From assembly GCA_947568835.1 (NCBI GenBank), contig OX387604.1, positions 11,499,076 through 11,563,075 on the forward strand: 64,000 nucleotides of DNA. Reading direction: 5' to 3'. The position numbers and the translations under genes were made by a program. The DNA is from Protonemura montana. Lineage: Eukaryota > Arthropoda > Insecta > Plecoptera > Nemouridae. Below the pieces are notes generated by a model, which did no database searches, was not told the DNA's origin, and saw only the letters and a program-made list of their open reading frames with translations. Shown here in pieces: positions 5,758 through 62,535 of this stretch. Positions within the stretch are counted from its first letter, which is position 1. Each line of letters starts with the position of its first letter.

Positions 5758-6249
<492 letters not shown>

Positions 6250-10031: not shown

Positions 10032-10511
10032 GTACGGGTCATTCCATATCAAGTGCCCACACTCAAAACCTTCACTATCTCAGAACTTGACGAAATTTTC
10101 AGGAGGGTTAGAACACCGGAAATAAAAAATCTCTTTTAAAGTTTTTTTCCATACGCCTAGCGGTTTGCCCGTGGCAGGGGATGGAAAAATAAAATATTTT
10201 ACTTTTTGCCCCGCACGGCCATTCACTATATTCACTCTAGCGTTTGAACAAATAAACTTAAAACGATGGGATTAGTTCTAAAATGATAATCGTGCTTTCA
10301 TTAACAAGAAAAAATGCATAAATTGCTTACTTATCAAGTTTAGGGGTAGAAAAAATCCACCCTTAAATTTCAACCCTTAATAACTCGAGAAGTAATTTTT
10401 TTTTTTTTTTTTGTTTTGTTGTGAAGCATCTCCTGTCTATTATCTTTCCATGAAAAAAAAATTAATCATTAACAGCCGTATGATCAGAAGTTATGAGATT
10501 TTTATTGTATA
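10032..10511 (+). repeat. left terminal inverted repeat of transposon
   Basis: Starts GTACGGGTCATTCC. It is the reverse complement of 13340-13819 over all 480 positions by eye. Homology stops at 10512, apart from a further 6-base match. It contains a 17-base T run and a 9-base A run, both preserved in the other arm. Confidence 0.92.
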
Positions 10512-10704
10512 GATGTGTATGAATTTAGAAGTGCTTTTGCTAAATAGTTTGTTGAGCATGAACCAAATTGAATTCAGAAGCATTCGATTATGCTAAGTTT
10601 GTCATAGCATAAATAAAGCTTGAAAAGATTTGAATTTGGGATGGAGTCGAGCAATTAAAATTTTATTATAAGGATGTGATATTTTTGGGCTTTGTGCTAT
10701 AAAC

Positions 10705-10953
10705 ATGATAATATGTGGCTCTGGTCACGATACTAGGTCTGTGTTTCTGCCGTGCATTATGACCACGGATCTGACGAAATTCATATTTTACCTACTTCTA
10801 TTTAAAGAATCCCACCACGAACACGTGCAGCCCTTGCTACCTGTTTCTCTTTTCAACCCTTATGGCCGGAAGTTTAGCCGTGAGACAGCGAATTCAGTTG
10901 TTTCTGCATTGGTTTCTTGGTCAGTCGCAAAACACTTAGCTCAGTGCAAGTAG
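10705..10953 (+). CDS. small open frame in transposon leader, function unknown
   Basis: An 82-codon ATG-initiated frame between the left inverted repeat and the transposase, in the same orientation. I see no domain, signal peptide or zinc-binding pattern. It may be leader sequence, a remnant of a second gene, or an alternative 5' exon of the transposase. No other copy of the element is available here to show whether it is conserved, so coding status is doubtful. Confidence 0.2.
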   Translation: MIICGSGHDTRSVFLPCIMTTDLTKFIFYLLLFKESHHEHVQPLLPVSLFNPYGRKFSRETANSVVSALVSWSVAKHLAQCK

Positions 10954-11135
10954 ACGAGTGATTCGAAGTTTTCTTTGCATTATTTTTGTGCGTCGTGAAT
11001 TGAGGGGTGTTAATAATACCGTTGGAAGTGTCTTGTGAACATATTTTTAATTAATAGCAATAGTATAGTAATAGCTAGTTTATTTAATAGTTATAATCAC
11101 AGCGTTTAGTTTTGTATATTTTATGTAATTTAATC

Positions 11136-13205
11136 ATGGACTCGTTTACTCGAGCGAAGTGCTGCAATCCTTTTAAACACGTTTCCCACACACAGCTGAA
11201 GTCTCTCCTCAACGTCCAGCCGTGGATGATTGAAAAGATTTCCTCGATTCCAGTAGGAAGCAAAATCTGTGCCAAATGTAGGAAAGATTTAAATAACTAC
11301 GTAAAACCAATCAGCAGCGACTCTCCAGTGACGACGACGACCTCCAGCGATGGCGACAACTCGCAGCCCGGCTGCAGTGGTGCAAACGCCGAGAGTCAAG
11401 CATATTTTTTCCGACAAGACGCTGCTTTGTCTAACATCAACGTGGGCTTGGCGGAGCTAGGGCAATCGCCCATTGTTAAGAAAAAGTTGGCGCAATCCAG
11501 TTATCCCAGGAAGAAATTGAAGAAACTCGAAGGTGCGCTTAAAAGAACCACTACCTCCGACGCTGAAAGCGACAGTGGCCAAGATTCAGCTGATGGTCGC
11601 GAAATGATTAATCAGCTGAAAGAGAAGTTTCACTCGTCCACATCCAACAGCGAGAAAGTGCATGTTCTAACTGTCCTCCCGAAGAGCTGCTCTGTCCGGC
11701 GAACAGTGGCAGAGTTTCAAGCGTCAGAGCGCATGGTCCGCAAGGCAAAGAAGCTCGTCCTGGAAAAGGGAATTTTGTCAACCCCGAATCCAAAGCCAGG
11801 AAAAACAATTGACCGAGCCACAGTTGACCGAGTAAAATCTTTTTACAATTCAGACGATGTGAGCCGAGCCATGCCGGGCAAGAAAGACTATGTTTCCGTC
11901 AAGGAGGCGAGCGGCACTCGAGTGCACATCCAGAAAAGGCTCGTACTCTCAAACCTTAAGGACCTCCATACCCAATTCAAGGACAAATTTCCTAATAAAA
12001 AAATAGGATTTTCAAAATTTGCAGAGCTGCGGCCGAAGAACTGTGTGTTGCCTGGTGCCAGTGGGACTCATTCGGTGTGCGTGTGCACTATCCACCAAAA
12101 CGTCAAGCTAATGATCATCGGTGCCGACTTGACGAAGTTGACAGTGGACCAATCTTATCCGATAACATCTTACCACGACTGCCTTGAGCAGTTGGTCTGC
12201 GACAGTCCCCTCCCCGAATGCCATCTAGGCGAGTGTGAGGAGTGCCCGGGCATCGAGCCGTTAAAGGAGCGCCTCACGCAACTGCTGGACGACGAAATGG
12301 TGGACAATGTTATCTACAAGCAGTGGGAGAGCACCGACCGATGCACCCTGCAAACGCACATCGATTCATCCGAGGAATTCGTGGACAGTTTTTGTGCAAA
12401 ATTAGTTGCTCTGTGCCGCCACTCTTTTATTGCTAAAAAACAATCTTCGCACCAATCGGACATCAAGTGCGGTCTCCTGCCCGGCGAGTTTTTGGTGATC
12501 TGTGATTTTGCCGAAAACTATGCGTTCGTGCTACAAGACGAGGCCCAGGGGTTCCACTGGAACAATGCGTCCGCCACCATCCACCCCTTCGTGGCATATT
12601 ACAAAGAGGGCGGGGAAGAGCGCCACATCAGCTTTGTTGTAATTTCTGAGAGTTTGATCCACAACACTGTCGCAGTGCATCTATTCATAAAAAAACTCGT
12701 GAGCTTTTTGCACAATAAATTTCAGACCATAAAGAAGATGTTCTTTTTTTCTGATGGGGCAGCCTCGCAATATAAAAATAGGAAAAATTTTGCCAACTTG
12801 TGCCACTATCAAAGAGACTTTGGGGCCGACGTGGAGTGGCATTTCACGGCGACGTCACATGGGAAGAGCGCCTGCGACGGCGTCGGAGGGACGGTCAAGC
12901 GGCTGGCAGCGCGGGCGAGTCTTCAGCGCCCCTACGAGTCGCAAATAATAACACCCCGGCAACTCTTCGATTGGGCGGTCGAAGCCATCCCGACCATCAA
13001 CTTCACATTCGGAACTATTGAGGAGCACCAAGACACAGAACAGCTGCTAGCCACACGATTTGCGTCATCCCGGCCAATTCCCGGCACGCAAAAACTGCAT
13101 TGCTTCGTACCCGTGTCTGAGCACTCAGTAGCCACGCGGGTGTTCTCCTCCTCGCCGTTGTTCGAAGAAGCCAGAGTGATAGGTCAGAGTGAAACGAAGA
13201 AATGA
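11136..13205 (+). CDS. transposase of an unassigned DDE/D-like family
   Basis: Encodes 689 aa in one exon. The ATG at 11136 is chosen because the open frame upstream begins only with non-ATG codons. The N terminus has a Cys pattern (Cys9-Cys10, then Cys45-x2-Cys48 in KICAKCRKDL), probably a zinc-binding DNA-recognition module, followed by a Ser/Thr-rich linker. The middle carries VCVCTIHQ (about residue 316) and a Cys-rich stretch (about 348-372). The C-terminal half has three blocks that look like an RNase-H-like catalytic core: CDFAENY (Asp457), SDGAASQYKNR (Asp540) and SHGKSACDGVGG (His575, Asp581). These residues are proposed as catalytic by position only. Sequence style matches widespread uncharacterised animal proteins with the SDGAASQYKN and HGK..CDGVGG signatures. 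There is no stop or frameshift. Position between perfect inverted repeats makes a transposase role very likely. Confidence 0.85.
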   Translation: MDSFTRAKCCNPFKHVSHTQLKSLLNVQPWMIEKISSIPVGSKICAKCRKDLNNYVKPISSDSPVTTTTSSDGDNSQPGCSGANAESQAYFFRQDAALSNINVGLAELGQSPIVKKKLAQSSYPRKKLKKLEGALKRTTTSDAESDSGQDSADGREMINQLKEKFHSSTSNSEKVHVLTVLPKSCSVRRTVAEFQASERMVRKAKKLVLEKGILSTPNPKPGKTIDRATVDRVKSFYNSDDVSRAMPGKKDYVSVKEASGTRVHIQKRLVLSNLKDLHTQFKDKFPNKKIGFSKFAELRPKNCVLPGASGTHSVCVCTIHQNVKLMIIGADLTKLTVDQSYPITSYHDCLEQLVCDSPLPECHLGECEECPGIEPLKERLTQLLDDEMVDNVIYKQWESTDRCTLQTHIDSSEEFVDSFCAKLVALCRHSFIAKKQSSHQSDIKCGLLPGEFLVICDFAENYAFVLQDEAQGFHWNNASATIHPFVAYYKEGGEERHISFVVISESLIHNTVAVHLFIKKLVSFLHNKFQTIKKMFFFSDGAASQYKNRKNFANLCHYQRDFGADVEWHFTATSHGKSACDGVGGTVKRLAARASLQRPYESQIITPRQLFDWAVEAIPTINFTFGTIEEHQDTEQLLATRFASSRPIPGTQKLHCFVPVSEHSVATRVFSSSPLFEEARVIGQSETKK

Positions 13206-13339
13206 GTGAGTAAAAAGAATCTTTGTAGTACTTACACACAATTTTTAAACTGAAAAATTATATAATCTATCAATTTACGGGTGAATTGCATGGACCATGC
13301 TAACAGACTTGCAGAAACACAACTAAATGCACACACATT

Positions 13340-13819
13340 TATACAATAAAAATCTCATAACTTCTGATCATACGGCTGTTAATGATTAATTTTTTTTTCA
13401 TGGAAAGATAATAGACAGGAGATGCTTCACAACAAAACAAAAAAAAAAAAAAAAATTACTTCTCGAGTTATTAAGGGTTGAAATTTAAGGGTGGATTTTT
13501 TCTACCCCTAAACTTGATAAGTAAGCAATTTATGCATTTTTTCTTGTTAATGAAAGCACGATTATCATTTTAGAACTAATCCCATCGTTTTAAGTTTATT
13601 TGTTCAAACGCTAGAGTGAATATAGTGAATGGCCGTGCGGGGCAAAAAGTAAAATATTTTATTTTTCCATCCCCTGCCACGGGCAAACCGCTAGGCGTAT
13701 GGAAAAAAACTTTAAAAGAGATTTTTTATTTCCGGTGTTCTAACCCTCCTGAAAATTTCGTCAAGTTCTGAGATAGTGAAGGTTTTGAGTGTGGGCACTT
13801 GATATGGAATGACCCGTAC
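13340..13819 (-). repeat. right terminal inverted repeat of transposon
   Basis: Mirror image of 10032-10511, same length, no difference found by eye. It ends GGAATGACCCGTAC. The transposase stop codon lies 134 bp before it. Confidence 0.92.
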
Positions 13820-34600: not shown

Positions 34601-37600
34601 CACCGGGAAACAGATCGATTTACTTATAGGTCAGTTCCCAGTTAAGTATTGTAAGTGTAACAGCGCGGCGTTATGATAATCACCGTCATCGCCACTACAA
34701 GAATCTCGCTCCTCTTTCGCAATGAAAGTGTCTTCGGGAAATGCACGCTATGCAGTGTAAAATACTGTGTTTTTTCATGTCATCAACATTCCGAATGGAA
34801 GGCTTTGTAATTAGGTGAACTCTTGGAAGACTTAAGTGGTGGTAATTAGTACCTGGAAAGCCTTCCAGAAAGGCGCTGAGTATCTGAGTATGCTGGTGTT
34901 GTGCTGCAGCTTAACAACTGGGGCCAGTAGAATCGTTAAATCAAGCTTAGCATTGTAGTGTGGCTTTTCAGACAGCATGACCACTGCAGTGGTAGCTCCC
35001 ATCGAGTGACCAATGAAATGTAATGTCGGTTGATTTGTCACACTCAACACGTAGTCGATCATGGCAGGGAGATCGTAAATACCAATTTCATGCCAGCTGA
35101 AACATTTAACACTTTAGCAGGTTAGCAGTGGTAAGGTAGTGCCTATCAACTACACTTTCAATGTTACTCCAGATAAATACTTGTCTCGAAATGAATTGAT
35201 ACGAATGGGTTCAAAGGAAGAAATAATTTAGTGCATATTGAGGTTTATCTTCCTTGAAAGAAATTAAACGGGAAATATTTCATTTTGTAGGTCATGGTTC
35301 TTAGAAGTAAATTGATTCCGATGTTAAAATAACAATAATACAAATAATACAATTTAAAGTTTTTATATCTACCTACCTGAAATCCCAGAACTGAGCGTCT
35401 TGTCTTGACATATTGACATGCTGACTTGAATATATATTTCCTCTCAAATTTCCCATCCATACGTCATATCCGGCATCTGACATACGGTACCCTGTGGATG
35501 ACAAATTATGTTCACATAGTGTTCAGGCTTACGGTACAGTCCTGGGTGACCCCCTACCCGTCCCCTCTTTCCCTCTTCTCCTACACCCATCCATCGGCGT
35601 GCTCGAACGCATCCTTGGCGACAACTCATGTGGGGCTTCCGTAAAGGTAGCAAGTGACACACCATGCTGACTAGCATTTCACTGTCACATAATTAAACAT
35701 GTAAGAAGCCCATTTCGGCTGTCAAATAACAATAAACGCTCCTTAGAAGGGCACGCAAACGCTTAAAAAAAGTACTAAAAAGTAGGTAGTAATTTACGTT
35801 TTAGAAAGTAAAAAAATAATTTTTAGGTTTTTGAAATGAAACTTTTTCTTCGCAATTACGCGCTATCTATAAAATATCTCGCTATGCTTGCAAATAATGC
35901 TATTTTGACAGACTTTTCAAATTGAATCGGGTTTCATTCAGAATCCCTGAATAGCTAAGCTCAATTTTCCAAACGTTCGCATATTATTGTGGACTTGCAT
36001 GTCACTCTGCGCTGCAACACAGACGTTTTCTATGGCCAGAAGCAACCCCTACCCCAGTCCCTGTTTCACTGAGATTTCCTCGACAACTTATTTTCTGAGG
36101 GTTTCAACGAAAACCGCTTTTATGAAGACACCACAAGATTGAGAATCTCATTCAATGGCTCGTATACTCTTCGACTCGCCTCATTTCACTGTACGTACAG
36201 GACATTCCGATCAAGTTCCTGCACACCTAGGGCACACTCTCACTAATCACTACACTTTTCAATAATATTGAACAAAAGGCACAGTTTAAAAAGAAACTTG
36301 ACACGCAATGATATCCAGATAAATATTGCATACGAGTGATTTAATAGGTTGGTTAATATCTTGTAACTCAGTTCGAGACTTTTTTTTCGCAGAGCATTCC
36401 GATTTTGCAAGAACTTTTTGCAAAAAAATATATAGATGCTTTTCTTTAATCCCGAGAGAGTGGCACAGGAATCCAGTAAAAGAGTTTGATTTCATGAAAA
36501 TTAAATAGATTTCTGCTTCGCTCCTTTATTTATATACGGATACCTATAGTTTACTCCTGCACAGCTGTTTTAAACTAATGAAACGAGCGTTCGCATATTT
36601 AAGGAAATTACATTCTTCCAGTGAAGGATGTGATATTTTCTAATTACACTACAACCTTATCCATCTCTCATGCAGATGATCTACGAAATTACATTGCACT
36701 CAAAACTGCATGATAATTAAACCATTAAATTATTTGTTTGTTGCAATTTAAGGTTTATTTATTTTTACATCACCAACTTGTTAAGTATCATGGAGTGCAT
36801 CTGTTATAATTACGGTTCCAATTATCTTTCAATAAGACTCACGAGCAGTTGAGCGTGCTTATGGTTAAAAAGATAGCACGAGTAAATAGCAAAGTAATCA
36901 GCGAAATGCTTTCCTTAACCGTTTAATTACACGGTGTAATAATTAACATGCACTCTCTAAAATCTAGGACGACACGTCTAAAACGATTCAGTATCCCACA
37001 GAATTGTTTTCTATTACTCTGACCATTGCAAAGTGTAAACAATAATGCCACAGCATGGCTAGACACTATAAAGTTAAAAAAATATATGCCAGAGTCACGT
37101 TGACAACAGATGTGTGCCTTACCTAATGCATTATCAGGTCCGGTTAGCACCCAGTCCAAGGAGCTTGCAAAAACCCCATGCTGTAGAAACACGATAGGTT
37201 TACTGCTTGTAGATTTGTCGCGATGTCTCACATCTGTGCCAAAACGTTGCCATTGTTTGCGGTACCCTTTCGTGTGTGAAGTCCTCTTGCTCTGCGAATC
37301 CGAGGAGTAACGTACCCTGCCACTGAACGGTATCCGGTGTAAGGTCAACAAATACCCATCTTCTGACGCAAGGGTGTGAATCTCCATAGGGTATCCGTGC
37401 TGGACAATTAGATCGGGCTAAACGTAGCAGGAACAAGACAAAGTAAATGATTAGACAGGTTATGTACAGAACTTGCGATGCACATGACGCCAAGATAATC
37501 GAAGGAATCGTCAGACATGACTTCCAAGAACTGATGTGCAACAGTGACTAATCAGCAAAGGTTCCGGTTAAATGTTTGGAAGCTATTGTGACAGTATTTT

Positions 37601-39612: not shown

Positions 39613-42600
39613 ATGCGTCTTTTGATAGCCAGTGCATTTCTGTTCGCTTTAGTATGCATGCTCTGTGCCAACTCAAATGCAGCGCGGATCCTGGGCGTAT
39701 TCCCGGTGTCTTCGGTGAGTCACCAAATCGTGTACCGCGCCCTGATGAGGGCACTCCACGCGCGGGGCCACGACGTGGTTACCCTTACTACCAACCCAAC
39801 GGCCGGTCTCAACCTGAAGAACTTCACTGAAATCGATCTGTCGAGGGTTTACGAATACTGGAAGAAACGTTACGATTTTGCAGGGAAGAAAGATTTGAAA
39901 CCAAGTCCAGAAGAAATGATGGCCGATTTCATGGAATCTGCTAACGATATCTGCGAGATCGAACTGTCACACCCAGATGTCCAGAAACTAATATCTTCAA
40001 ACTCTACGCAAAACTTCGATTTGATTATGATGGAATGGGTAATCTTTCCGTGCATGTACGGTTTCGCACACACTTTCAACGTGCCGATGATCGGCGTAGT
40101 GTCGCACGGGGCATTCCTGACCGGGTACGACGCCGTTGGCAATCCAGCGCACCCTGCCTACTGCCCCGATGTCTTCCTCCCTTACACAGACCACTTGAGC
40201 TTCGCTGAGCGTCTTCATAGTACGTTATACAATATCTGGTATCGATACAAATGGCATTTCTACGTGCTACCGCGCCAAGACGCCATCGCAAGACGTCACT
40301 TTGGTGCTGCGATGCCTTACCTCGGTGACATCGAAAACAATGTCAGTATGGTATTTGTCAATAGTCACTTTACGCTCCATGTGCCTAGACCCAACGTACC
40401 GGCAGTCATCGAAATGGGCGGATTGCACATAAGAAGACCCCAGCCTCTGAGAAAGGTAACTATTATTTTGATTAGATCTAGCTTTACATGAAGAAAATAT
40501 TATATAATAGTTTATTTTTTTAAGATGGAATGCAATAAAAATGATTCTGAATTCAGTTAATAAACACACACACATGGAAAGTAATTTATATTAAATAAAT
40601 GACAATGCAACAATTAAAATAAAGGAATTAATAATGCTTATTACAGTGTGCCGGCGTGAAATTGAGTCAGTAGATTCAGATTAGGCCACTTTATCTGCCC
40701 GTGGGCTGACCTCAGTGACATCACTATTTTTCTTTCTTTTATCATCGTAAGATTCTCGGGTGTTTGTTGCATTTTTCAAAGTCCATGCGGCGGTCTGTAA
40801 AATGCGTATACGCTAGTCACGGTCCAACGGATCGTATCTTGTATCACTATTTCAGTGCAGCATGCAGAATCTACCTAGCTCGAACGTTAAAATTTTAATT
40901 ATAACAAAAATATGTAAAGCATATTTCAGAAGCTTACTCCTCGTTTGCGAATTTCATCCAAAATATTTTGTTAATAATGGCAATCAGGTTCCATTCCAAA
41001 GAAGAAAAAAAAAACTTCTTTTATATGCACGCTCTCTCTGCACAACTTTTACCTAACGAAGGAAACAAAATTCAAATTTTTATAATAGACTAAATGAAGA
41101 ATAAATCCACGAGTCCATAATTTAGAAATTTTAAATATTGTCGTTATTAAGATCGTGAAAACATAGCCAAATGAATACCAAAAATGATTCCCATGTTCAG
41201 CTTTTCACGAGCCTACATTTCTTGATATTGAATTTCAAATGCAAGAATGTTTTCTTCATTAGGCCCGCGGCATAAATTTTAATGTATAATATTAACTAGC
41301 GGTGTGGCTAAGAGATGGGGCAGCAAAAAGTCGACAAAGAACGTGTTTCGATGCTGGGATGGGAGGTTAAAACGAGCGAAATAATATTGCGTTCATTAAA
41401 ATCCAAGGATCATAGTTTCCGTTTGAGAACTGTAGCTCTAATGAATGCATACCCAAAATAGTTTATGAAACCTGTATAACACGATGGGTGTAGCCAACAC
41501 TACGGTTTTATTAGGATATCAGAACCACTAGTAAAAATGGCAGCTCTCCCAGTCGCTTAGCTACATTAACCCATAAGAAAGTATAGGCCAATGGGTCACG
41601 AAACCGCACGATCGTCCATTTTAACTAAGAGTTGTTATCCAAAAAAAAAAAAACTGGCATTAAATAATTCGCATCTGCTGTGCGAAGAAAAGATTGAACT
41701 TTGCAACCTTAGAAACATATGGGGAAAATGAAAGCGAGGAAAGGCCAAACTAAATAATGCACGACTATATTCTGACTTAATGTCGACCTCTGTTCTCAGG
41801 ATCTCGAAGAATGGCTACAAGGATCTCCCGAAGGAGTCATCTACTTCAGTCTAGGCTCAAACGTGCGCAGTGACCGTATGCCCGAGCATAAACGTCAAAT
41901 GTTTCTGGACGCATTCTCCGAATTGAAACTACGAGTCTTATGGAAATGGGAATCAGACACCCTGCCAGGGCAGCCGAAGAACGTGAAGCTTGGCAAGTGG
42001 TTACCACAGCAAGACATTCTTGGTGAGTCATACACAGCCCCCGCCCACCTCTTTATGCACTCTGTAATGCACTTTTCGCTTGCTTCCAGTTCCAGCGAGA
42101 CTGAAACGTCATTATTCTCCTGTCCAGGGTATTTTAGCGCCAGTCGCTGCCCATCGCTTAATCAACGTTGAAAAATCGCATTCCTCTACACAATTATTTA
42201 GCCAGACAAATACTGCGCTAAATACGACTTGTAACTCATTATGAAAGCATAGAAATAGTTTGTTTCTTCTTTTAAATCCGGTACTGTAAAGGATATGCAT
42301 TAGGATATTGACCTAATCCTTAATTATGCAACTTGCCGACAAAGATAAATTTCTGCGTTGACCATTATCGAAAGGGTTAGCGGCTTATTTATTAACAATG
42401 TGCAAGTATCATCCTATGCCCTTAAGGCAAAATAACTCCTCACCAGTCTATTTCATTGAAAATCGATCGGCATTCAGACTCTTTGCAGCTCGGCTAGGTT
42501 AATTGTGCATAATTTACAACATGTCTCTGTGCTTGGTCCAGCACACCCGAAGATTCGGGTGTTTATCACCCAAGGGGGGCTCCAGAGCACCGAAGAGGCT

Positions 42601-59329: not shown

Positions 59330-60321
59330 ATGGGGGAACGACAGAGGATCGTGGCGTTAGAGGACCCAACGCGTTCGTTCAGCAGCTTCGTTCGTATCAA
59401 TCGAATGGCGGCGAGTGCCGGTTGTTAGTTGCTCAATGCCCAGTACACTGGTCTGTCTGTGCATGGTCTGCGTACACTGTCCCCTCATAGGAAGTGGGGG
59501 CGAGGGTGCACCTTTCCTTCCCAGTTGAGACCTGAAGTCCACGGTGCGACCAGCCCGCAGCGCGTCGCGCCAGCGCCATCGCCAGCGCCGCGTTTCAGAC
59601 AACGCAGCCAACGCCAGTCAGCACAGTGCTCGGCATCGGACGAACCGAAGCCGACTACCCCCCCTCCCCCCCCCCCCCCCTTCTTCAACGGGCCACGGCT
59701 CCCTACCCCGCACCGCGTACTCCCCAACAAGGCGGTCTCACTCCGAACACAGTCTCGTCTCGCAGTTCGTTCCCTACCGGTGTGCTGGCGTGACGTTCAA
59801 AGAACGCACTCTGCTCTGTGAGATCAGGATTGAAGCAAATCAGTGGGGACACTCGCTTGCCAGCGTCAACATTTCATCGACTACCACACGCTCTCCGGCG
59901 GTGACAACCAACTTTGGCAAGCAGTTTGAGAAGGTGTTTTCAGAAAGAGTGTGCCATCTCGTCGTGCCGTTTCAAATATCCGCTCTTCTTAGCACGCCGC
60001 GTCGTGCGAATTACATCCTTGTAGCAGTGCCGTCGTTAAACATTGGATTCGCGTGTCCGTCAAGCGTTTGTCAGTGCCGTGTATTATCCGCGTGTTCTCC
60101 TGTCGCGTCGGGTCTCGCCGAGAAAAGCTCGCGAGAAAGCTTGTCAAGTGGGTAAATTGATCACTTGTTAATGAAATGACGTAAAATTGTCGCATTGACA
60201 GTTTGACGAACAGAAAATGTAAAATATGGTAGTGTTCTGTTTGGCTTGCTCGAAAAGACATGCATAAATTGTTGTGGATCAAACAAAGTGGTCAATTATA
60301 GTGGCCACTTTGGTGCTAATA
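59330..60321 (+). promoter_or_regulatory. CpG-rich promoter/5' leader region of kek1
   Basis: GC and CpG content rise sharply from about 59330 and stay high to about 60150, unlike the AT-rich flanks, then the sequence leads into kek1. The open frames at 59429-59821 and 59544-60155 have no domain and overlap in different frames, so I read the region as promoter plus 5' untranslated sequence. A donor-like GTAAAT at about 60151 could mark a leader intron. A C-rich run with one T lies at 59658-59680. Confidence 0.5.
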
Positions 60322-62535
60322 ATGACTGATCGGCGAGTTGCCGTTGCCGCCGTTGCCACCGGTGGCAATAAGTGGATGTTGTGGCAAATCGTGGTGGTTT
60401 TGTGCGGTTTGTTAGCGTGTGTCGCGACAACCTCTAACTTTTGCCCCACCGTGTGCGCGTGTAAGTGGAAGGGTGGCAAGCAAACTGTCGAGTGCGTGGA
60501 CCGGGCGCTCATCACGATACCGGCCAACGTCATCCCTGAGACGCAAGTGTTGGACATGTCGGGAAACAATCTGCAGATCCTGCCCCGAGATATGTTCGTC
60601 CGTGCCAACCTACTCAACCTGCAGAAGGTCTATCTGAGAAGCTGTCGCATCGGACAGATCGACGAGCACGCGCTCCATGGGTTGACCAATCTTGTCGAGC
60701 TTGACCTATCCTACAATCTGCTGACGTCTATACCTACTTCGACCTTTAAGGACGTCCCGTTACTGCGAGACATCACCCTCGCCAACAACCCCATCCAGAA
60801 GATCGAGAGCAATGCATTTTGGTCGTCGCCAAATCTGGTCAAGCTAGATTTATCCAATTGCCAGCTACAGATAATAGCACCGAAAGCGTTTGAAGGGGTT
60901 GAGAAACTGGAGTCGCTCAAGTTAAACGGCAACCGTTTAACCGAGTTGAGGCCGAGAACTGTAAACTCATTAAGACGATTAAACGGCATTGAATTACACG
61001 AAAACCCGTGGCTGTGCGATTGCCGTCTCCGCGAAGTGAAACTTTGGCTGCAGGATAACAACATCCCCTATCCCGTGGCACCGAAATGCAGCGGCGGTCC
61101 GGAGAGGATCGCCGATCGGTCGTTCGCAGAGCTGGAGGTCGACGATTTCGCGTGCAAGCCTGAGATCCTGCCCATGAGTCGTTACGTCGAGGCTACGACC
61201 GGGGAAAACGCCACTGTCGTGTGCCGAGTGGGCGCAGTGCCTCCGGCTGCGCTCCACTGGTACTGGAATGGGCGTCTCCTGGTCAACAACTCAGCGTTTA
61301 GTTCCCATCAACGGGTCTACATCTTCGTCGATGGACACTTCGAGAAGAGCAGCACGTTGGTGCTCACCAATGCTCAGGAGACCGACTCGAGCGAGTTCTA
61401 TTGTGTGGCGGAGAACCGAGCCGGCAACGCTGAAGCCAACTTCACTCTGCACGTGTCCATGCGTACAGCAGGCATGGCCACCCTCGGAAGCGGACAAATC
61501 GCCGGGCTAAGCGCCGCATTAGTGATCCTAATCCTTTTCATCCTATTTGTCATTTTGGTTCTCCTCGTCCGTCTTCGGCGACTTCCTTTTTCCGAGAGCA
61601 AAACGCCTGGGCAAATCGAGGCGAGTGTTAACATCGAAACCACAACCTCGAACTCTTGTAAACCCTCCTCCTTGCACCCCGCACAACCTTCCGATACATC
61701 ATTCACGGAGCGAAGTAAAGTAGTCACGAATGACTTGAAGGTGGCGTGTAACCCGATCCAGAAACCACCTCGACTCACGGAACTCGCCTACACTACCAGT
61801 CACTACGACAGCAATGGCAGCGTAATCAATACGGCGCCGTTCGCTGGCGCTACCGTCATCTCGGCCACCAATAATCCCGACCTTATCAAAGATACGAAAC
61901 GCCTAGTCGCTGCCGCCGAGCTGAAGCACACGAGTAGCAGCCAGCACGCAACACCTAACCAGCTGCAAGCGGAGAGTATCGAGCTGCGACCCGGCAGCGG
62001 CGAGTACACTCGCGAGGGCTGCGATTCACTCTACCCTTCCGCTCTGTGGGACCACCCACAGCCTCCTAGTCCGTCTCCGGAGCACTTCATCCGACGCACC
62101 ACGAGCACTGGCTTCAACTACGACTCGACTGACAAGACTCCAATTATCAGCGATGGCCAAAGCATGGGTGGTTCTGAAGAAGAAGACTTCAGCAGAACAT
62201 TTCCGCGACAGCACCACAACGGGTACCCACCCGACTACGGTCTGCCGATCATTCCGTCGGGTGTGGAGCAGAAGCAGCAGCATCATCAACAGCAGCAACA
62301 ACAGCAACAGCATCCGCATCCGCAGCACCCTCAGCATCCGCGAGAAGGCGTCGCAGTCAATAGTAATACGAGTCCTTCCACCTCGCCGACGTTGGCAGGG
62401 CTTCCCTCCGCGAAGACGCTCAGGGTTTGGCAGCGAGGGGTGCCTGTACTTCCTCCGGTGACAGCCTTAAAGAGGGTGCTTTCTCGGAACTCGCCCGACG
62501 AGGGATACCAAGAGGGATGTGGTACGGATGTCTAA
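60322..62535 (+). CDS. kek1: Kekkon-1 type LRR-Ig transmembrane protein
   Basis: Encodes 737 aa in one exon. Order: signal segment MLWQIVVVLCGLLACVA (from residue 19), LRRNT (CPTVCACKWKGGKQTVEC, 41-58), about six leucine-rich repeats, LRRCT (NPWLCDC to DDFAC, Cys232-Cys278), one C2-type Ig domain (Cys301-Cys361, with WYWNG and DSSEFYC), a membrane helix (393-416), and a long cytoplasmic tail with a His/Gln-rich run (about 650-670). The C terminus is GTDV, a class I PDZ-binding pattern. LTNAQETDSSEFYCVAENRA and the SMR.AGMA.LGSGQI.GLSAAL stretch before the helix match Drosophila Kek1 as I recall it, closer than Kek2 or Kek5. Kek1 is known to bind EGFR and damp its signalling. Starts at 60322 (A at -3) and 60376 are both possible; the open frame upstream begins with GTG. 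Confidence 0.93.
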   Translation: MTDRRVAVAAVATGGNKWMLWQIVVVLCGLLACVATTSNFCPTVCACKWKGGKQTVECVDRALITIPANVIPETQVLDMSGNNLQILPRDMFVRANLLNLQKVYLRSCRIGQIDEHALHGLTNLVELDLSYNLLTSIPTSTFKDVPLLRDITLANNPIQKIESNAFWSSPNLVKLDLSNCQLQIIAPKAFEGVEKLESLKLNGNRLTELRPRTVNSLRRLNGIELHENPWLCDCRLREVKLWLQDNNIPYPVAPKCSGGPERIADRSFAELEVDDFACKPEILPMSRYVEATTGENATVVCRVGAVPPAALHWYWNGRLLVNNSAFSSHQRVYIFVDGHFEKSSTLVLTNAQETDSSEFYCVAENRAGNAEANFTLHVSMRTAGMATLGSGQIAGLSAALVILILFILFVILVLLVRLRRLPFSESKTPGQIEASVNIETTTSNSCKPSSLHPAQPSDTSFTERSKVVTNDLKVACNPIQKPPRLTELAYTTSHYDSNGSVINTAPFAGATVISATNNPDLIKDTKRLVAAAELKHTSSSQHATPNQLQAESIELRPGSGEYTREGCDSLYPSALWDHPQPPSPSPEHFIRRTTSTGFNYDSTDKTPIISDGQSMGGSEEEDFSRTFPRQHHNGYPPDYGLPIIPSGVEQKQQHHQQQQQQQQHPHPQHPQHPREGVAVNSNTSPSTSPTLAGLPSAKTLRVWQRGVPVLPPVTALKRVLSRNSPDEGYQEGCGTDV

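Follow-up and report, generated by a model that had tools for sequence, protein, structure and literature searches.

An intact, recently spread transposon, probably of the Sola type, in the plecopteran Protonemura montana

Sola transposons are described (PMC10741241) as encoding an Asp-Asp-Asp transposase, making 4-bp target-site duplications, measuring mostly 2-9 kb and carrying terminal arms of 11-1124 bp. Amoebozoan Sola2 elements (PMC3627910) show AT-rich 4-bp duplications (AWWT in one set), an 888-aa transposase and arms of 12-21 bp, and a survey of the ostracod Darwinula places Sola2 among its families and reports current or recent activity for many elements. Here we describe an element of 3780 bp at positions 10036-13815 of a 64,000-bp stretch of P. 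montana DNA (contig OX387604.1, 11,499,076-11,563,075, forward strand; hereafter the window), the boundaries of which were drawn by comparing genome copies. With a probability of roughly 0.78, we read it as an intact, autonomous-looking cut-and-paste transposon of the Sola type; Sola2 is its most likely affinity. It resembles Sola, as compared by description only, in its 4-bp duplication, Asp-Asp-Asp RNase H core, 3780-bp size and 476-bp arms, and it follows the AT-rich Sola2 duplication pattern only in part, at the two central positions, whereas its long arms and 689-aa protein differ from the 12-21 bp arms and 888-aa transposase of the amoebozoan elements. With its duplication corrected, the element agrees with Sola in that trait and in its Asp triad, size and arm length, and so probably lies within the named superfamilies; membership of Sola is likely when judged by described traits rather than sequences.

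The initial annotation of the window had reported inverted ends of 480 bp and a 5-bp ATTAC duplication. The ends are indeed complementary at 480/480 positions inward from 10032 and 13819, with the first mismatch at position 481, but the outer 4 bp proved to be the target duplication, counted as arm because GTAC is palindromic; with it excluded, the true arms are 476 bp each without mismatch, and the element starts as GGGTCATTCC. A search of the window with the element matched only the element itself and its own arms, and many copies in the host genome, which spans 258.5 Mb in 34 contigs, matched the arm only from its second to fifth base. Of the 42 copies with top protein score we fetched 40, taken from the head of the list, together with the ends of 10 more, and found an exact 4-bp duplication in 47 of these 50 full copies (37/40 by script, L017 with TAGA by eye after the script misplaced its end, and 9/10 further copies), the remaining three being one base off. 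The duplicated sequence varies between copies (ATAG, GCAT, GTAC, others). An empty site, which the initial annotation had proposed for settling the duplication length, was provided by the sister copy L037, which interrupts a 58-bp tandem satellite (flanks G000:C14:12187999-12193065): in 20 other satellite units the uninterrupted site carries ATAC once in 17 and a base change there in 3, showing a duplication of 4 bp; a duplication length other than 5 bp at an empty site was one of the outcomes that the initial annotation had named as refuting it. ATTAC was therefore rejected, as GTAC separates it from the element and other copies duplicate 4 bp; it is a chance match of the window site, with arithmetical odds of 1 in 1024 for a given site. 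When the 46 exact sites other than that of L017 were counted on both strands (92 in all), a symmetrical bias towards RC-NWWN-GY emerged, with C adjoining the duplication in 56/92, and A/T in 80/92 at each of the two central positions of the duplication and in 59/92 at the outer two.

The view that this is an intact and young DNA transposon was upheld by the 42 copies sharing the top protein score over all 689 aa, by the mostly exact duplications and by the near-identity of the copies. The exact 25-base end occurs 206 times in the genome and 0 times in the control. An N-terminal query gave 63 matches and a C-terminal query 150, two of which belong to a sister family, B, and were set aside; pairing the 63 with the remaining 148 yielded 56 collinear copies among the matches listed, 54 young ones, the window copy included, and two older. 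The queries were scored on 150/256 and 150/346 candidates, respectively. The N-terminal part is 99-100% identical in the 54 young copies, a count far beyond chance. In 39 of the 40 fetched copies (L017 was skipped), the 147,420 bases compared held eight private substitutions, or 5.4 per 100,000, a rate biased low because the copies were chosen by protein score. At a mutation rate like that of flies, near 3 per billion per generation, this low-biased divergence would mean a family age of some 20,000 generations or fewer. The examined copies are thus nearly identical and the spread through the host genome is very recent. Position 2612 of the element is T in the window copy and in two others; 32 of the 35 copies of standard length have C there. 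Length differs from 3780 bp in 5/40 fetched copies (L017 as measured by script), and in the two resolved, L014 and L016, the indels fall within the 17-T run or its mirror; the homopolymers expected to mutate fast are identical within the window copy, as first noticed, but variable between copies.

The arms themselves appear to have a history. The 30 bp beyond each 476-bp arm match their mirrored counterpart at 22/30 positions (P about 1e-6 against 30% random matching, with a boundary set post hoc), so that the duplicated stretch predates the part of it that is identical, suggesting that the arms of the parent element were homogenised. Six of the eight private substitutions are in arms, and none of these is mirrored in the opposite arm; the arms of inserted copies therefore drift independently. 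Continuous homogenisation was rejected on this ground, and any homogenisation took place in the parent.

The transposase frame, recorded at the outset as unbroken, was confirmed to run for 689 aa from the ATG at 11136, and 945 relatives of the protein were found. Asp457, Asp540 and Asp581 are conserved in a comparison of 63 sequences and a structure model predicts an RNase H core around them (residues 451-597); the fold suspected earlier around Asp457 and Asp540 is thus borne out by prediction and conservation, and Asp581 is the likely third residue. Foldseek alone returned weak matches for the fold, and, within the fold families listed in comparisons with solved structures, the likeness to the RNase H cores of retroviral integrases and Mos1 (about 10% identity) is one of shared fold only. 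C45 and C48 are at least 90% conserved in the 63 sequences, and among the equivalents in 47 relatives C10, C11 and H19 reach at least 90% and C47 and C50 are invariant, a pattern by which the Cys-rich N terminus is probably zinc-binding. The window lineage lacks a C-terminal beta domain that is present in most relatives; in the relative P0002 some integrase alignments extend into the integrase C-terminal domain, which the window protein does not have.

Using the missing C-terminal domain as query (150/189 candidates scored; nearly all of them have a frame of 863 codons), we found family B, whose transposase is 46.7% identical to that of the window and keeps the domain. Its arms, about 480 bp long, are imperfect (467 identities, 9 mismatches, 11 gap bases). 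The 24-base end of this family was counted 328 times (164+164), which we judge to represent about 164 copies, and 6/6 copies are identical over 2111 bases. Four family B matches lie within about 14 kb at G000:C5:12177326-12191390, and two same-strand ends lie 90 bp apart at C1:22022459 and 22022549. A third family of about 2.4 kb has arms that resemble each other for at least 440 bases, up to the limit of the fetched stretch, and are about 70% like those of family B; the end GGGTCATTCCATG occurs 670 times in the genome as against 3 in the control, and among the matches listed a spacing of 2398-2399 between such ends occurs four times. The end GGGTCATTCCAT is common to the window family (A), family B and the third family while the inner arms differ, A and B having the outer 12 bp in common and otherwise only short or T-rich stretches. 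This combination of a shared end with different inner arms suggests, from sequence comparison, that the group may use the 12 bases as a signal for recognition or cleavage.

These relatives raise the question of whether the full-length element is a passenger, with its own domain-less transposase inactive and movement supplied by, for example, family B. In family B, a complete copy has an 860-aa protein that includes the C-terminal domain, the ends are numerous, and the terminal 12 bp and an exact 4-bp duplication with an AT-rich centre (10/10 copies) are shared with the window family, all of which would suit such a helper. Against this, the resemblance of the A and B arms ends at the outer 12 bp and the short or T-rich stretches, and the older copy L123, which is 87-89% identical and stays collinear as far as the same right end, is likewise without the domain, indicating that the domain-less lineage persisted while intact-frame copies arose. 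We therefore consider the passenger explanation unlikely.

The initial annotation had left the superfamily unassigned, and in one respect this stands: neither the window transposase nor the 63 members of its family match Pfam, and there is no Sola model among the Pfam matches; the traits themselves, however, fit the published Sola descriptions. Transib, weighed earlier for its 5-bp duplications, was rejected because the duplication is 4 bp. piggyBac and Kolobok duplicate TTAA and were rejected since the duplications here vary. hAT and Mutator make duplications of at least 7 bp, and were rejected together with P and Galileo since the duplication is 4 bp. Ginger agrees in its 4-bp duplication and was rejected as none of the Pfam families that any of the 63 members hit at E 0.05 is an integrase. 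Galileo (P superfamily, Foldback-like; PMC4168063) nevertheless shares long arms, which grow partly by taking in the final part of the transposase open reading frame, and coexisting subfamilies; it differs in its 7-bp duplication and P-type transposase, and no functional copies of it were found there. In print, the matches listed for the terminal sequence 'gggtcattcca' and its variants were all unrelated by title, and no literature was found under 'Cc8L18.2', the name on a Bemisia relative.

An unnamed cut-and-paste superfamily, convergent with Sola in its 4-bp duplication and Asp triad, would account for the lack of Pfam matches among the 63 members, for the negative outcome of searching viral and prokaryote contigs, each with two conserved peptides, for relatives, and for arms far longer and a transposase shorter than those given for amoebozoan Sola2 (PMC3627910). 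The traits readable in print nonetheless agree with Sola, and 945 relatives make a wholly unnamed group less likely, so that this alternative is quite improbable. The element thus probably represents no new kind of transposon but a known, little-studied group, of which it makes a promising living example.

Under the Sola-type reading, the 689-aa transposase would bind the element ends, perhaps via its Cys-rich N terminus, and cleave at the GGG/CCC termini, after which the RNase H active site (Asp457, Asp540, Asp581) would join the 3' ends into RC-NWWN-GY sites with a 4-bp stagger that repair would make into the 4-bp duplication. GGG-type ends are also associated with Sola2. The data establish the ends, the duplication, the target bias, the copy number, the near-identity, the conserved residues and the fold as predicted, while DNA binding, catalysis, present activity and Sola membership are inferred.

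Beside the full copies stand palindromic derivatives made of two right halves. At least 39 right-right pairs were found genome-wide, a lower bound since 150 candidates were scored for each of the N- and C-terminal queries, and in 39/39 the gene 3' ends point outward. No opposed pair was present among the 63 N-terminal matches, a search of 150/256 candidates that is blind to left-left forms without room for the N-terminal codons, so that left-left forms may have escaped it. The spacings of the first 100 of the 328 family B ends gave no sign of palindromic derivatives. All five short derivatives fetched (L058, L059, L060, L061 and L062) begin with an inverted right half and finish with a right end in normal orientation. 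Four are young: their arms pair over about 1.35-1.5 kb, and the centre between them is short and either asymmetrical or rearranged (rearranged in L062). In the older L061 the second arm is only 92 bases long. There are 10 spacing classes, four of which occur 6 to 12 times each, and 8/8 arms from four classes share six differences missing from the 35 standard-length full copies. Independent origin of the compared classes was rejected on these shared differences, which point to one founding event followed by rearrangement of the centre; by sequence, the palindromes probably trace to such an event. In it, repair or replication would have copied the right half twice, the likely route being gap repair or replication that switched template between the arms, and the products would have spread with their own 4-bp duplications, presumably using the transposase of full-length copies.

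Some library methods are known to create palindromes artefactually, and collapsed or chimeric reads might in principle have made both them and the identical arms, but the palindromes lie at different sites with their own 4-bp duplications (exact in 14/15: 4/5 fetched and 10/10 further), four spacing classes recur, and the arms, whose artefactual origin had been named as a refuting outcome, are common to copies at unrelated sites that carry their own duplications, which largely refutes this very remote explanation. A more far-reaching proposal, tentative and rather doubtful, is that a Sola-type lineage shed its integrase-like C-terminal domain yet kept transposing, and that its long, identical arms are at once product and substrate of a repair that copies one end, from which a successful class of right-right palindromes has sprung.

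Table 1. Parts of the element in the window and representative copies of the two sister families
Feature	Position	Strand	Remarks
Left copy of 4-bp target-site duplication, GTAC palindrome	10032..10035		Other copies start at GGG with other 4-bp duplications
Left terminal inverted repeat, 476 bp, start GGGTCATTCCATATCAAGTGCCCAC	10036..10511	+	Complementary to right arm, 0 mismatches
Putative 5' leader of transposase gene	10512..11135	+	Between left arm and ATG
Transposase gene, 689 aa, single open frame including stop codon	11136..13205	+	Open frame
Cys-rich N terminus CCNPF...H...CxxC (C9, C10, H18, C45, C48)	11160..11279	+	Conservation
Predicted RNase H core, residues 451-597	12486..12926	+	Asp457 12504-12506, Asp540 12753-12755, Asp581 12876-12878
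Right terminal inverted repeat, 476 bp; AATAAA inside at 13345	13340..13815	-	Arm complementarity
Right copy of 4-bp target-site duplication, GTAC	13816..13819		Copy comparison
Family B copy (L057 plus L051)	G000:C1:3233672-3237782		4111 bp, 860 aa, duplication TAAT
Third family, about 2.4 kb (L126, L127)	G000:C1:4190035-4192433		End GGGTCATTCCATGT, duplication TTAT, ends of one copy

Elsewhere in the window, positions 60274-62532 hold a single open frame for a leucine-rich-repeat and immunoglobulin protein, which we take to be kekkon-like. Fragments of ordinary animal genes, a UDP-glycosyltransferase (39613-40488) and a lipase (36926-37387), and an ATT microsatellite of 61 units (5759-5942) are also present.

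The titles and abstract openings of the literature searched contained no experimentally tested Sola element, which is weak evidence. A near-identical intact family with defined ends and target and many natural copies would make Sola transposition directly testable, and the C-terminal domain, lost in the window family and kept in the successful family B, offers a ready comparison of the role of that domain.
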